Shown: positions 1 through 6,204 of the stretch, one piece after another
Layout: every line of letters begins with the position of its first letter
Position numbering within the stretch: position 1 is the stretch's first letter
DNA from: a bacterium
Lineage (GTDB): Bacteria; Blakebacterota; Blakebacteria; Blakebacterales; Blakebacteraceae
Direction: 5' to 3'
Assembly (NCBI GenBank): GCA_025774615.1
Contig: JALGVQ010000164.1
Coordinates: 1 to 6,204 of the forward strand
DNA: 6,204 bases
The notes under the pieces: model-generated
The model's database searches: none
What the model saw: only the letters and a program-made list of their open reading frames with translations
Told to the model about the DNA's origin: nothing
Translations under genes and position numbers: made by a program

Positions 1-1255
1 TGGGATCGGCCAGAACGTTATAGAATCTGCCGTCCCCGTAGAGTTTCCACTCGCTGTCCATGACAAAGCGGTCCGGTTGCCATTGACCCCAGCGGGGATC
101 GTAGTGGCAGAAGATCCATTCACGCGGATCCCCTCTCTCGCCATGAAGCTGGGGCAGGAAGCTCTTTCCATCGAGGATACAGGCAGACTTGATATCTGTC
201 CCGGTCGCTTCGACGATCGTGGGCAGGAAGTCGGTGAAATCGATCAGATCATCGCATACCAGACCACGAGGGATCACTCCCGGCTGACTGGCGATCAGGG
301 GTACGTGGGTGGCGGTCGAGATGGTTCGCCCCTTGCCTCCTATAACACTCATGTCGCCCATCAGGGATGTGATGTTCCGATGGGTTCCATTGTCAGTGGT
401 GAAGATCAGCAGGGTGTTCTCTCTCAGGCCCAGCTCCTCCAGGTTTCTGACTATCCGTCCGACGATCGTGTCCATGTAACCGACCATGTCGCCGAAGAAC
501 TCCCGTCCCCTCATCGCGGATCGTTCGGGGCCGACCTCGCTGTCCGGGGTGGGAGAGAATGGATCGTGGGGCAGGATCATGGGGTAGTAGGCAAAGAAAG
601 GACGATCCGCGTTCCGACGAATGAAGTCGTTAAGGAAGTCACAGCATACGTTGGGTCCATAGACATCATCGGGACCCTCGAGGATCTCACCGTTCCGCCT
701 GATCGACGGATTCCAGTATCTCGACCCGAGATGCTCCACCTGCCAGAGGCAGTGTTCATCGAATCCGGCCAGTTCGGGAAGCGTCCCCACGCCATGATAG
801 TTTGCTCCCTCGACTCTTCCGGAGAGCTGCCATTTGCCGGCAACGCAGGTGGTATACCCGGCGTTCTGAAGAAGGTGTCCGAAGGTCACCTCGCCAGGAT
901 CGAGGGTACCGAACTCGGTGTAGTTTCTGAAATTGTATCTGCCCGTCATGAGCTGCACGCGTGAAGGAGTGCAGAGGGGCTGGGAATGACAGCTGGTGAA
1001 CCGTATGCCCGTCCGGGCCAGTTCATCCAGGTGGGGAGTCTCATAAGAGGTGCCGCCGTTGCAGCTAAGACCCTCAAAACCCAGATCGTCGGCCATGATG
1101 AGGATGACATTCGGTCGACTCCTCTGGCGGGAACAGGCCTGCAGGAGAGGGGAGAGGGCCAGCGCCGCCGCGCCTCCCCCCACTGCCTGGAGGAACCGGC
1201 GACGGTCGGTGCTGCCCTCCATCCGACCGGTCTCCTGAGGCTGTAGTTCAGCCAT
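1..1255 (-). CDS. Sulfatase (formylglycine-dependent, type I), Tat-exported probable lipoprotein, C-terminus cut by window edge
   Basis: Hydrolyses sulfate esters of an unidentified substrate. My reverse-strand translation gives 418 residues before the left edge; the family usually has 450-550, so the C-terminal subdomain is missing. Seen: metal-binding Asp pair D56-D57 in the first strand (NVILIMADDLG, 49-59); the sulfatase signature C95-T-P-S-R99, whose Cys would be converted to formylglycine; GKW at 140-142 with the catalytic-type Lys141; PHDPF with His230; TTDNG with D288 and N289; and GGKG with Lys308. Residue 143 is Gln where arylsulfatase A has its active-site His. The N-terminus has a twin-arginine motif RRRFL (18-22), an Ala/Leu/Gly-rich segment and LQAC (Cys41), suggesting a Tat lipoprotein; Gln at -2 makes the lipobox imperfect. 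The ATG lies inside the end of the dehalogenase-like gene (8-nt overlap) without a strong Shine-Dalgarno, so coupled translation is likely. The maturase (FGE or anSME) is not in this window. Family assignment is firm; substrate unknown. Confidence 0.95.
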   Translation of the reverse strand, partial: MAELQPQETGRMEGSTDRRRFLQAVGGGAAALALSPLLQACSRQRSRPNVILIMADDLGFEGLSCNGGTSYETPHLDELARTGIRFTSCHSQPLCTPSRVQLMTGRYNFRNYTEFGTLDPGEVTFGHLLQNAGYTTCVAGKWQLSGRVEGANYHGVGTLPELAGFDEHCLWQVEHLGSRYWNPSIRRNGEILEGPDDVYGPNVCCDFLNDFIRRNADRPFFAYYPMILPHDPFSPTPDSEVGPERSAMRGREFFGDMVGYMDTIVGRIVRNLEELGLRENTLLIFTTDNGTHRNITSLMGDMSVIGGKGRTISTATHVPLIASQPGVIPRGLVCDDLIDFTDFLPTIVEATGTDIKSACILDGKSFLPQLHGERGDPREWIFCHYDPRWGQWQPDRFVMDSEWKLYGDGRFYNVLADP

Positions 1256-2495
1256 GTCTCGGTCCAGTACCCTGTGGCCGGGGTGCCTGCAGTTCCCCGT
1301 CCACATCCTCCAGGTCGAGCCACCATTGCTGCTGGTAGTCCGGTTTTCCATATCCGAGCAGATCATCACCCCATACCGCCATCCGCCGCAGGAAGGGCAT
1401 CTTGCGCATACTCCAGTTGATCGTTCTGTGGAAGGGCGTATATGGCTTGTTCCACGGACACACCTTGATGCATGTTCCGCAACCCGATCCCTGCTGGTTC
1501 CCAACCCTCATGGAGGTGCATTTTTCGACATCGGTGGACCATTTCTCATACCCGTTGGATACCACCCTGTCCCCATCACTGATCGCGCCGGAAGGACATG
1601 CCTGCGCGCACTTGTTGCATTTGCTGCAGAAATCCTGGAGTCCGAAATCGATCGGCCGGTCAACAGCCAGGGGAAGGTCGGTGGTGACGATCGCGGCCTT
1701 GAAACGCGGCCCCAGGAACGGATTCAACACGATGTCACCGATCCGGCACATCTCCCCCAGACCGGCCCATAGCAGGATGGGTGGAACCACTACCTGGTAA
1801 TTCATGGCATGATGGGCTCGAGCCTCATATCCGAGCCTTCGTATGTAATCTGCCAGAATGCAGGCGATGAATCCCGAGGTGGTATAGGCCAAAAAGCTCA
1901 TGGAATTACTTATCCAGTCGCTTCCGTTAAAGATGGAAGTAGTTCGCCAGTCCTGGTCGACAAGGATCGCAATGGCGTATTTGTGGTCACACTCCACCTC
2001 GGCGCCGGTGGCCTTTGAATGGGTGAATACCGCGTAGGGCGGAAGTTCGCAGATGCCGACCATGTCGGCCCTCAGGAAATACGACGTCTCCTTGATGTGC
2101 CGTGACATCGCGGATGGATCATCGGGGAGCGGGGCCCTTTTCTCAGCCATCGGGGGCATGGGTCGCCATGACGAGGCTCCCCAGGGAGTCGCGGAGGCTT
2201 CGGCGGCCGGACCGGTCACATCGACAAGCGGACCAAGCGCACCGGCCATCGACACAAGCGCACCCGAAAGCGGATACTTCGGCACGAAACGCTTGTACTC
2301 CCTCTGCAATCGCTGCCCGTAGTGGCCGAGGGCGGCCTTGTGAAAACCCCCATCGCGTTCATCCACGCGAGGGACTTCCTGGTCCCTGATGAGGGTTGTC
2401 GGCCTGTCGATCCGCGTCAGTGAATCAACCGGAAAGGGATCGGGACGGTCAGCCCGGCACCTGTCCCGGCGGTCTGAATTGAAGATCCTCGTCAT
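1248..2495 (-). CDS. Reductive dehalogenase (RdhA)-like corrinoid/4Fe-4S protein without export signal
   Basis: Probably a cobalamin- and iron-sulfur-dependent reductase that removes halogens from an organic substrate. The 415-residue protein has the C-terminal ferredoxin pair of the family: C290-x2-C293-x2-C296-x3-C300-P, then C326-x12-C339-x2-C342-x3-C346-P. Other family-like segments are VDERD (44-48), ADMVGICELPPYAVFTH (143-159), KYAIAILV (172-179), the helix ending RRLGYEA (219-225), WAGLGEMCRIGD (243-254), TTDLPLAVDRPID (271-283) and GYGKPDYQQQWW near the end (381-392). The N-terminal VDERD block and the x12 spacing in the second cluster argue against epoxyqueuosine reductase (QueG), the nearest alternative. 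Tyr204 may correspond to the family's proton-donor Tyr; I could not align it. There is no Tat motif, and an in-frame TGA lies nine bases before the ATG, so the start cannot move upstream. No RdhB membrane anchor is visible. This suggests a cytoplasmic, non-respiratory enzyme. GGAG lies 12 nt before the ATG, a long spacing. Confidence 0.88.
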   Translation of the reverse strand: MTRIFNSDRRDRCRADRPDPFPVDSLTRIDRPTTLIRDQEVPRVDERDGGFHKAALGHYGQRLQREYKRFVPKYPLSGALVSMAGALGPLVDVTGPAAEASATPWGASSWRPMPPMAEKRAPLPDDPSAMSRHIKETSYFLRADMVGICELPPYAVFTHSKATGAEVECDHKYAIAILVDQDWRTTSIFNGSDWISNSMSFLAYTTSGFIACILADYIRRLGYEARAHHAMNYQVVVPPILLWAGLGEMCRIGDIVLNPFLGPRFKAAIVTTDLPLAVDRPIDFGLQDFCSKCNKCAQACPSGAISDGDRVVSNGYEKWSTDVEKCTSMRVGNQQGSGCGTCIKVCPWNKPYTPFHRTINWSMRKMPFLRRMAVWGDDLLGYGKPDYQQQWWLDLEDVDGELQAPRPQGTGPRHG

Positions 2496-2563: not shown

Positions 2564-3556
2564 TCACCGACGGATCGTGAATGCTTCGAGTCTCTCACCG
2601 TCGGTTCCGATCACGGTGACGTGCAACTCATCGGGTGATACATCTACTCTCGTTATGGTATGGGTAGGTCCGATGAGCAGGTGATAATCATTCTCTCCCT
2701 CGGTCGGATCGATCTTTATCAGGCTATGAGTGTGCCCTGATAACCAGAGGTCGACTCCCGCATCATTCGCGGGCCGTTCAAAATGTTCCCTTACATTCTG
2801 AGCCCAGTAACGGTCCGCTCCCCGTGGAGGGATATGAGAGATGATGATCCGGAATCGGGCCTTCAGCGCACTCTCGCTCCGGAGATCCCCGGCCAGCCAT
2901 TCTGCCTGTTCCTCGAGATAACGGGTGAAATCCACCAGGCCGTTGTAATAGCGGTGCCCGTCTTCTTTGTCCTCACCTGAATCGAGCACGATGAAGTGGA
3001 CCGGCCCATGGTCGAAGGAGTAGTAAGCCCGTCCATCCTGCAGGGGGATATAATCGGAGATGCTCCGCGCGAACCGGCCCCTGGTCTCGTGGTTCCCGCG
3101 AGCGAAGATGAACGGTGTTTCCGTCGCAAATCCATCGACAGAGGCATCAAGGAATCCGGTGAAAATCTGATCGGGTCTCATGAAATCGTCGATCATGTCA
3201 CCGTTGTAGATGACGAGATCGATCTCCCGCCAGGTGTCACTCCCGATTATCGTGACCAGTTCATCCGATCGCTCATGGAGGTCGGAAACCATGCTGAATG
3301 AGAAGCGTTCCTTTTCCGGATCGAGGGTGGTGAATTCGAACGAATCACTGATGATCGAGTCACCCCAGGCGACGATATGCTGTCGTTCGTATCCCAGAAA
3401 AGCCCGCGAGACTACCCGATACTGATACGTCGTATCGGTTCGGGCAGCAACAGGCTGATGGACCGCGGGCCGGAGTGCGACTGTTCTGCCTGCTGAACCT
3501 GAAGCCGTCAACAGCACCCCTGAGAGTCCGAGCGCGAACAGATATGATCCTCTCAT
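2564..3556 (-). CDS. Secreted calcineurin-like metallophosphoesterase (purple acid phosphatase-like)
   Basis: Hydrolyses phosphomono- or diesters with a two-metal centre, probably in the periplasm. With the start at 3556 it has 330 residues. It carries the full set of metallophosphatase motifs: D92-L-H94, N118-G-D120, G154-N-H-E157, H241 (SHIPP) and G274-H-T-H277. Residues 1-22 form a signal peptide (MRG, then a Leu/Ala/Gly-rich core) with probable cleavage after GSA. About 70 residues before the catalytic domain (YQYRVVSR to FEFTTLDP) resemble the beta-rich N-terminal domain of purple acid phosphatases, and the last 30 residues form a beta-rich tail. An in-frame ATG at 3625 exists, but the 3556 start has AAAGGA at 8 nt and places the signal peptide at the N-terminus. 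It is the first gene of the leftward unit, 68 bp before the dehalogenase-like gene with no terminator between. Substrate unknown; nucleotides, phosphate esters or phospholipid headgroups are all possible. Confidence 0.93.
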   Translation of the reverse strand: MRGSYLFALGLSGVLLTASGSAGRTVALRPAVHQPVAARTDTTYQYRVVSRAFLGYERQHIVAWGDSIISDSFEFTTLDPEKERFSFSMVSDLHERSDELVTIIGSDTWREIDLVIYNGDMIDDFMRPDQIFTGFLDASVDGFATETPFIFARGNHETRGRFARSISDYIPLQDGRAYYSFDHGPVHFIVLDSGEDKEDGHRYYNGLVDFTRYLEEQAEWLAGDLRSESALKARFRIIISHIPPRGADRYWAQNVREHFERPANDAGVDLWLSGHTHSLIKIDPTEGENDYHLLIGPTHTITRVDVSPDELHVTVIGTDGERLEAFTIRR

Positions 3557-5318: not shown

Positions 5319-5327
5319 ATAATGAAA

Positions 5328-6204
5328 ATGAGACGACCGGCTACGTTCACGATCCTGGCTGCGGTCCTCCTCCTTGCTTCAGCTCTCACCGGCTGTGCCG
5401 GGTCCTCCCGGCAGACCGAGAGTGCGGCTGTGACCGAAGAGCAAACCCCAGATCGGCAAACTGAAAGAGTAGCCGTGCCCCGGGAGCAGACCCCTGAGGC
5501 CTGGGCCCGCGAACAATACGCTGCTGCCAGAAGGGAACTCCGTGCTGCGTTGGCAGCTGGCACGATCACCGAGGAGCAGGCCGAGGAACGCATGCTCGCG
5601 ATGATGACGCACATAACACAGGAGCAGGCCTTTGAAAGTGATATGCGTGAGCGGTTCACCGCCGCTGAGAGAGAACTCCGCGCTGCGGTGGAGGCTGGCA
5701 GGATCACGGAAGAACAGGCCCAGGAGCGGATGGTCGCGATACGGGAGCGCATAAGGCAGGAGCAGGCAACCGAACGCAGCATGCAGGAGCAATTTGCCAG
5801 CGCTGTGAGGGAGACCCGTGCCGCGGTAGAGGCGGGCGAGATATCTGAGGAGCAAGCCCATCAGCGGCTGACCGGGATGCTGGAGCATATGGCTCAGGAA
5901 CAGGCTCCTGAGCGCAACATGCGTGAACAATATGCCGTTGCCGGGCGGGAACTCCGCGCCGCGGTGGCGGCCGGCAGGATCACCGAAGAGCAGGCCAGGG
6001 AACGGATGATCGCGATGCGGGAGAGCATGGCCCGGGAGCAGACCCCTGAGGCCTGGGCCCGCGAACAATACGCTGCCGCTGAGAGAGAAATTCGCACCGC
6101 GGTGGCGGCTGGCACGATCACCGAGGAGCAGGCCGAGGAACGCCTGGTCGGAATGCGCCAGCGCATGGGCCGGGAGCAGGCCACCGAGAGCGGTGTACGC
6201 GAAC
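5328..6204 (+). CDS. Repeat-rich helical lipoprotein, 46-residue tandem repeats, C-terminus cut by window edge
   Basis: Unrecognised function. The frame stays open to the right edge (292 visible codons). A type II signal peptide is clear: MRRP, hydrophobic core 7-21, lipobox L-T-G-C with Cys23. After a short Glu/Gln/Arg-rich linker (24-52), the protein is a chain of 46-residue repeats, with five complete and a sixth beginning. Nearly invariant positions within each unit are E1, Q2, E5, E10, A15, R17, E18, R20, A22, A25, G26, I28, E30, E31, Q32, A33 and R36. The core (LRAAVxAGxITEEQAxxRM) looks like two helices joined by a Gly-x-Ile-Thr turn, similar in style to SHOCT-type hairpins. Strong charge and heptad-like Ala/Leu spacing suggest a coiled or solenoid rod. 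Start choice: AGGAG (5314-5318) is 9 nt before the ATG at 5328 but only 3 nt before the in-frame ATG at 5322. No Cys follows the lipobox. Confidence 0.9.
   Translation, partial: MRRPATFTILAAVLLLASALTGCAGSSRQTESAAVTEEQTPDRQTERVAVPREQTPEAWAREQYAAARRELRAALAAGTITEEQAEERMLAMMTHITQEQAFESDMRERFTAAERELRAAVEAGRITEEQAQERMVAIRERIRQEQATERSMQEQFASAVRETRAAVEAGEISEEQAHQRLTGMLEHMAQEQAPERNMREQYAVAGRELRAAVAAGRITEEQARERMIAMRESMAREQTPEAWAREQYAAAEREIRTAVAAGTITEEQAEERLVGMRQRMGREQATESGVRE
5484..6204 (+). repeat. 138-bp in-frame tandem repeat array (46 residues per unit)
   Basis: Units begin at 5484, 5622, 5760, 5898 and 6036, each exactly 138 bp, with a partial unit from 6174 to the window end. Unit length never varies, so no indel has been fixed in the visible array. 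Units 2-4 have diverged considerably at the DNA level. Units 1 and 5 share two long identical blocks: 46 bp (5479-5524 with 6031-6076) and 36 bp (5556-5591 with 6108-6143). The array continues past the edge, so copy number is unknown. Confidence 0.95.

Follow-up and report, generated by a model that had tools for sequence, protein, structure and literature searches.

A predicted soluble, short NpRdhA-like reductive dehalogenase and its sulfatase neighbours in a Blakebacterota genome

The closest described system is NpRdhA of Nitratireductor pacificus pht-3B (PDB 4RAS, 6ZXU), in which S422, K488 and R552 hold the phenol hydroxyl and Y426 donates a proton; the K488Q variant is inactive (PMC7565698). 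BhbA, encoded on plasmid pBHB of Comamonas sp. 7D-2, has its gene set among protocatechuate 4,5-dioxygenase genes, not sulfatases, and the plasmid-borne catabolic relatives (Comamonas, Nitratireductor) lie next to pobA or protocatechuate dioxygenase genes, where no sulfatase is annotated. In the wider family, debromination of 2,6-dibromophenol is known for a Roseobacter debrominase (PMC13101508). Putative reductive dehalogenases without a TAT signal were inferred from Loki- and Thorarchaeota marine sediment genomes (PMC6737245) and from marine Deltaproteobacteria (PMC6299228), and many of the TAT-less enzymes described belong to a membrane-hybrid type whose N-terminus carries helices (PMC6797604). 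Soluble TAT-less enzymes from marine genomes have already been reported (PMC6737245, PMC6299228, PMC6797604). Sulfated bromophenols, named as natural products in the first-pass annotation of the DNA studied here, are confirmed for red algae, lanosol-4,7-disulfate being one (PMC9322897). Among the papers searched, none links a reductive dehalogenase, a sulfatase and bromophenol, and no rdhA-sulfatase link was found in those on gene neighbourhoods.

The window analysed (6,204 nucleotides) is an entire contig, C234, of a Blakebacterota genome of 3.3 Mb (324 contigs, 82% complete). On its minus strand, a metallophosphoesterase gene (3556-2564) is followed by an rdhA-like gene (2495-1248), which encodes a 415-aa FeS protein, and then by a sulfatase frame left open at the window start. 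The sulfatase is not complete within positions 1-2495; it leaves the contig end and finishes in contig C144: the last 37 residues of the truncated protein matched the end of C144 with 100% identity, an exact 114-bp overlap joins that end to the window start, and the frame runs on across the join. This join was inferred from the overlap, not from reads, and gives a region of 42 kb in which phosphoesterase and rdhA are followed by sulfatase 1 (437 aa, counted from its likelier start) and sulfatase 2 (654 aa), the last beginning about 57 nt past sulfatase 1. Both the rdhA-like and the sulfatase genes are real. Their features in the window are as follows.

2564-3556, minus strand: metallophosphoesterase gene, co-directional, 68 bp upstream of rdhA (PF00149, 65 bits)
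1248-2495, minus strand: rdhA-like gene, 415 aa, ATG at 2495, TGA at 1250-1248 (TIGR02486, phmmer, Foldseek)
1896-1898, minus strand: S200, equivalent to NpRdhA S422, which binds the phenol hydroxyl there (alignment; role from PMC7565698)
1884-1886, minus strand: Y204, equivalent to Y426, the proton donor in NpRdhA (alignment; role from PMC7565698)
1698-1700, minus strand: K266, equivalent to K488, hydroxyl-binding in NpRdhA (alignment; role from PMC7565698)
1596-1628, minus strand: first [4Fe-4S] motif, CSKCNKCAQAC-P, with C290, C293, C296 and C300 (sequence; invariant columns of a 23-sequence alignment)
1506-1508, minus strand: R330, equivalent to R552, hydroxyl-binding in NpRdhA (alignment; role from PMC7565698)
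1458-1520, minus strand: second [4Fe-4S] cysteines, C326, C339, C342 and C346 (invariant in the 23-sequence alignment, A1)
1253-1255, minus strand: alternative sulfatase 1 start named in the first-pass annotation, overlapping the rdhA stop (anti-SD pairing -3.9 kcal/mol)
1232-1236, minus strand: AGGAG, the Shine-Dalgarno sequence of ATG 1222, 9 nt before it (read from sequence; pairs with the anti-SD at -7.4 kcal/mol)
1-1222, minus strand: sulfatase 1, likelier start ATG 1222, 437 aa in total, ending in C144 at position 36086 (PF00884; contig overlap)
1133-1204, minus strand: TAT signal DRRRFLQ... and lipobox-like LQAC (TIGR01409, 18.6 bits; lipobox read from sequence)
959-973, minus strand: formylglycine motif CTPSR of sulfatase 1 (sequence; aligned with solved S1 sulfatases)

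The phosphoesterase has a 401-aa paralog, 83% identical, elsewhere in the genome (L046, G000:C18, 2526-3731) that carries a purple-acid-phosphatase N-domain; 71 aa of this domain are missing, in frame, from the window copy, which may be decaying or altered. At the other end of the window, positions 5322-6204 encode a lipoprotein-like protein with repeats of about 40 aa (REQYAAAERELRAAVAAGRITEEQA...), weakly DUF2680/SHOCT-like, which exits the contig end.

The reading of the first gene as dehalogenase-like was borne out, as its product scored 195.2 bits against TIGR02486 (curated cut-off 160.35). Its best solved relative was NpRdhA (phmmer, 6zxu, E 1e-117), followed by PceA (2e-29) and QueG (4e-7). 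An AlphaFold model built from 23 homologs (pLDDT 70, pTM 0.78) was compared with known structures by Foldseek, and the top 14 matches were all NpRdhA chains (TM about 0.8; PceA reached about 0.57 and QueG about 0.35). In a FastTree phylogeny with few respiratory sequences, the protein and its orthologs grouped with NpRdhA and BhbA, apart from the TAT-bearing RdhA of the same genome. Both FeS motifs expected of RdhA (CXXCXXCXXXCP and the second-cluster cysteines) are present.

The protein is about 40% identical to NpRdhA over 400 residues, and the two have in common the fold, the two [4Fe-4S] motifs, the residues S422/Y426/K488/R552, and the lack of both a TAT signal and RdhB. They differ in architecture: NpRdhA, of about 700 aa, retains a vestigial B12 domain at its N-terminus, whereas the protein encoded here is a single catalytic module of 415 aa, with neither a duplicated N-terminal B12 domain nor a fused reductase. 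A fused reductase is known for BhbA-type dehalogenases; BhbA itself, of the same clade and with the same S/Y/K/R active-site set, has 1071 aa with further domains. The protein is an "NpRdhA-like" short variant, not one of identical architecture.

The hallmarks of respiratory RdhAB systems are missing from the locus. A profile search gave no TAT signal match in the protein, and no RdhB-like gene was seen among the neighbours of rdhA in the joined 42 kb. The N-terminal helices of the membrane hybrids (PMC6797604) are absent by eye. The TAT-less enzymes of marine genomes are, like the present protein, putative dehalogenases recognised from genome sequence; RdhB is lacking here and in most orthologs inspected. 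Because the polar residues of NpRdhA are kept and both the TAT signal and the RdhB partner are absent, the protein most likely dehalogenates halophenols as a soluble, non-respiratory enzyme. Its clade is widespread among uncultured bacteria and also occurs in one archaeal MAG. A scan of a viral collection with the RdhA alignment returned nothing.

Conservation of the active site was high, with the tyrosine present in 27/27 homologs, the serine in 26/27, and the lysine and arginine each in all 26 that cover the site. The other RdhA-like proteins of the genome have R at NpRdhA position 488 and W at 552, where these positions align. In the substrate pocket, however, A419 and F290 of NpRdhA are replaced by N and G, respectively, a difference that speaks against the explanation preferred below. 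Since the hydroxyl-holding and proton-donating residues are all retained, a phenolic organohalide is the likely substrate, that is, an ortho-halogenated phenol from which bromine or chlorine would be removed. The earlier proposal of a reductive-dehalogenase-type enzyme acting on such compounds is thereby supported as likely.

While family, residues and fold were observed, the activity, substrate and electron donor described next are inferred. The product of 2495-1248 would be a cytoplasmic, catabolic-type reductive dehalogenase in a short single-domain form, dependent on cobalamin and two [4Fe-4S] clusters. By analogy with NpRdhA, the halogen ortho to the phenol hydroxyl would bind the cobalt of cob(II)alamin, while the hydroxyl would be held by S200, K266 and R330. 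Electrons would arrive via the two FeS clusters from a ferredoxin or reductase, and Y204, as its NpRdhA counterpart does, would supply a proton as the halide departs.

Further RdhA-like genes occur in this genome and beside orthologs elsewhere. One contig (L025, G000:C60, 29-4176) carries a candidate respiratory rdh cluster. Its products are an RdhA-like protein that scores 210 bits against TIGR02486, a TAT-RdhA that scores 173, a small protein of the membrane that may be RdhB, and a second membrane protein of FMN-binding/NosR-like type. Another (L024, G000:C309, 2366-3577) encodes an RdhA-like protein of 138 bits, below the family cut-off, which is probably anchored by an N-terminal helix. 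In a Deltaproteobacteria MAG (L006:2046-4530), a second, distant RdhA-like gene (E 7e-39) follows the ortholog after 68 nt, possibly forming a two-enzyme unit. Two tandem NpRdhA-type genes 7 nt apart, followed by an FAD-dependent reductase-like gene, were seen at L072:1465-3976, and this tandem arrangement was found in two near-identical loci in the phylum of the Acidobacteriota reference.

The identification of the second gene as a sulfatase proved correct (PF00884, 155 bits, cut-off 25). The protein shares CTPSR and TAT export with known S1 sulfatases (the kappa-carrageenan S1_16 enzyme 9FO1, the GalNAc-6-sulfatase 7STT and arylsulfatase A). Where 9FO1 and sulfatase 2 have GKWHLG, sulfatase 1 has GKWQLSG (His to Gln), and two relatives have Ser or Gly at this place; the other catalytic residues of the S1 set (Asp/Asp, Lys, His, Asp-Asn, Lys) are kept. 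The TAT signal and lipobox-like sequence suggest that sulfatase 1 is exported, probably as a lipoprotein. Its nearest solved relatives, all at low identity and not close enough for substrate assignment, are mainly carbohydrate sulfatases (carrageenan, GalNAc), with steryl-sulfatase and arylsulfatase A scoring nearly as high. A structure model from four sequences (pLDDT 55) was too poor to indicate a substrate class. Sulfatase 2, whose ATG is preceded by a strong AGGAGG, has, besides PF00884, an F5/8 type C (F5/8C) domain of the glycan-binding type as well as a sulfatase C-terminal domain; it is nearest to arylsulfatase A and GALNS. As sulfatase 2 is predicted to be exported and carries F5/8C, desulfation of polysaccharides or other glycans fits better than that of small aryl sulfates, and both enzymes probably act on sulfated glycans. 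The sulfatases are predicted to be exported and the dehalogenase cytoplasmic, which would place them in separate compartments. Ten PF00884 matches and two FGE-family genes were detected genome-wide; sulfatases are therefore a general feature of this genome.

The proposal of tight translational coupling between the two genes depends on the start codon of sulfatase 1. The overlap described in the first-pass annotation is present in the letters: the rdhA TGA lies at 1250-1248, an in-frame ATG at 1255-1253, and ATGGCTGA (1255-1248, minus strand) is common to both. A second in-frame ATG (1222-1220) sits 33 nt downstream of the first. The statement that the sulfatase has no strong ribosome-binding site holds for ATG 1255 (-3.9 kcal/mol) but not for ATG 1222, which has AGGAG and -7.4 kcal/mol; about 7% of the ATGs in the 42-kb region reach -7 kcal/mol. 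The twin arginine falls at residues 7-9 from ATG 1222 and at 18-20 from ATG 1255, and the genome's remaining TAT sulfatases, sulfatase 2 among them, have it at about residues 5-9, matching ATG 1222. Given this Shine-Dalgarno sequence and a TAT leader of normal length, translation likelier starts at ATG 1222, with a gap of 25 nt and its own ribosome-binding site in place of an overlap. Obligatory translational coupling is not supported; co-transcription of rdhA and the sulfatase is plausible.

The pairing itself, noticed after the fact in one genome, was sought at homologous loci elsewhere. The set comprised 16 loci with orthologs 52-73% identical, many with several kb of flank, eleven loci from a Desulfobacterota order (ten further genomes and a second copy in one already seen), and one locus in each of four additional genomes from the phylum of the Acidobacteriota reference. 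A co-directional sulfatase neighbour was found at none of these 31 loci in 30 other genomes, many of which show one or two genes per side while several stop at contig edges. No tandem rdhA-sulfatase pair was found in the 16 loci or in the sets searched, namely 377 genomes of the Myxococcota reference's phylum, 389 of the Desulfobacterota order, 396 of the Acidobacteriota phylum and four of the own phylum. The sole exception was a divergent sulfatase-superfamily N-terminus (L009:1-447), which was rejected as support for the pairing, since the contig end cuts it short and its similarity is distant. A match to sulfatase 1 at E 1e-25 was absent from 12 of the 16 ortholog-bearing genomes. Thus neighbours differ in all 31 loci, the outcome that the first-pass annotation had named as refuting its proposal, and a similar sulfatase is missing from most ortholog genomes; a shared pathway is not supported.

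Within the own phylum, rdhA was found in this genome only (one of four, which are 63-85% complete), no sulfatase 1 counterpart beyond 39% identity was found in the other, likewise incomplete genomes, and neither gene was detected in the same-genus genome. The nearest rdhA orthologs (65-73%) are from Desulfobacterota and Myxococcota. Desulfobacterota orthologs often adjoin sigma-54, LysR or GntR regulators in place of a sulfatase. Several of them (L007, L010, L011, L012, L020, L052) are divergently oriented to a gene for a GAF/sigma-54 activator, in many cases accompanied by an M24 peptidase, and this suggests an inducible regulator.

Taken together, the locus is best explained by a soluble NpRdhA/BhbA-type dehalogenase next to separate exported sulfatases, in a lineage-specific neighbourhood and not a conserved desulfation-dehalogenation pathway, a reading to which we give a probability of roughly 0.7. 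The downstream sulfatases, probably acting on sulfated glycans, lie on the rdhA strand and may be transcribed with rdhA, an arrangement seen in this genome only. Counter to this explanation, the pair is co-directional and close (25 nt, or an 8-nt overlap), and another sulfatase follows after about 57 nt. The genes may therefore form one transcript, and co-transcription often means related function. In addition, no same-genus genome with an rdhA ortholog was available in which loss of the pairing could be seen. A sulfatase beside a given gene is uncommon here, with 10 PF00884 matches in 3.3 Mb, so that the adjacency is not trivially expected. The one-strand adjacency and short gap speak for the original proposal that an exported sulfatase desulfates bromophenol sulfates outside the cytoplasm, the phenol diffuses in and RdhA debrominates it, with the genes coupled as one pathway. 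The RdhA active site suits phenols, the genome has FGE-type maturases, and since sulfated bromophenols exist in red algae the pathway is chemically reasonable, although no sequence feature ties these sulfatases to them. Against it stand the absence of the pairing from the 31 homologous loci and of a similar sulfatase from most ortholog genomes, the mainly carbohydrate-directed relatives of sulfatase 1 (arylsulfatase A and steryl-sulfatase being nearly equal), F5/8C on sulfatase 2, the different predicted compartments, and the lack, across the joined 42 kb, of genes for taking up phenols or degrading aromatics. We consider this proposal unlikely. Slightly less likely still is a real operon of a rare phylum for algal sulfated halophenols, with desulfation outside the cytoplasm and reductive dehalogenation inside; if true, it would be a lineage-specific innovation, and its absence elsewhere would not weigh against it.

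A different possibility, less likely than the preferred explanation but appreciable, is that the four-gene stretch was recently assembled or acquired, rdhA having come horizontally to lie by chance before a glycan-desulfation pair, in which case co-transcription would be functionally meaningless. The presence of rdhA in one of four own-phylum genomes, its nearest orthologs in other phyla (Desulfobacterota and Myxococcota), a phosphoesterase gene that is duplicated and has lost an internal segment, and the failure to detect sulfatase 1, too, in the same-genus genome all point this way; however, absences from genomes this incomplete are soft, and inspection of the joined 42-kb region by eye turned up neither a transposase nor an integrase. 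That the protein is a QueG-like or other cobalamin/FeS reductase and no dehalogenase appears very improbable. Dehalogenase activity is only predicted and TIGR00276 does match weakly, yet its 38 bits are far under the cut-off of 200 while the reductive dehalogenase model exceeds its own, and the E values, the ranking of the modelled structure, which puts NpRdhA far above QueG, and the retained halophenol-binding residues all favour NpRdhA.

In sum, the dehalogenase assignment is strengthened, coupling based on the overlap is doubtful, a joint pathway is not borne out by the differing neighbourhoods, and a desulfation-plus-dehalogenation route is unsupported, with a low probability left for it in this lineage. 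The short single-domain RdhA clade keeps the complete halophenol-binding site of NpRdhA across uncultured Desulfobacterota, Myxococcota, Acidobacteriota, Fibrobacterota and a Hodarchaeota MAG. From this site a concrete substrate class, ortho-halogenated phenols, can be predicted for genes that are usually listed only as putative dehalogenases.
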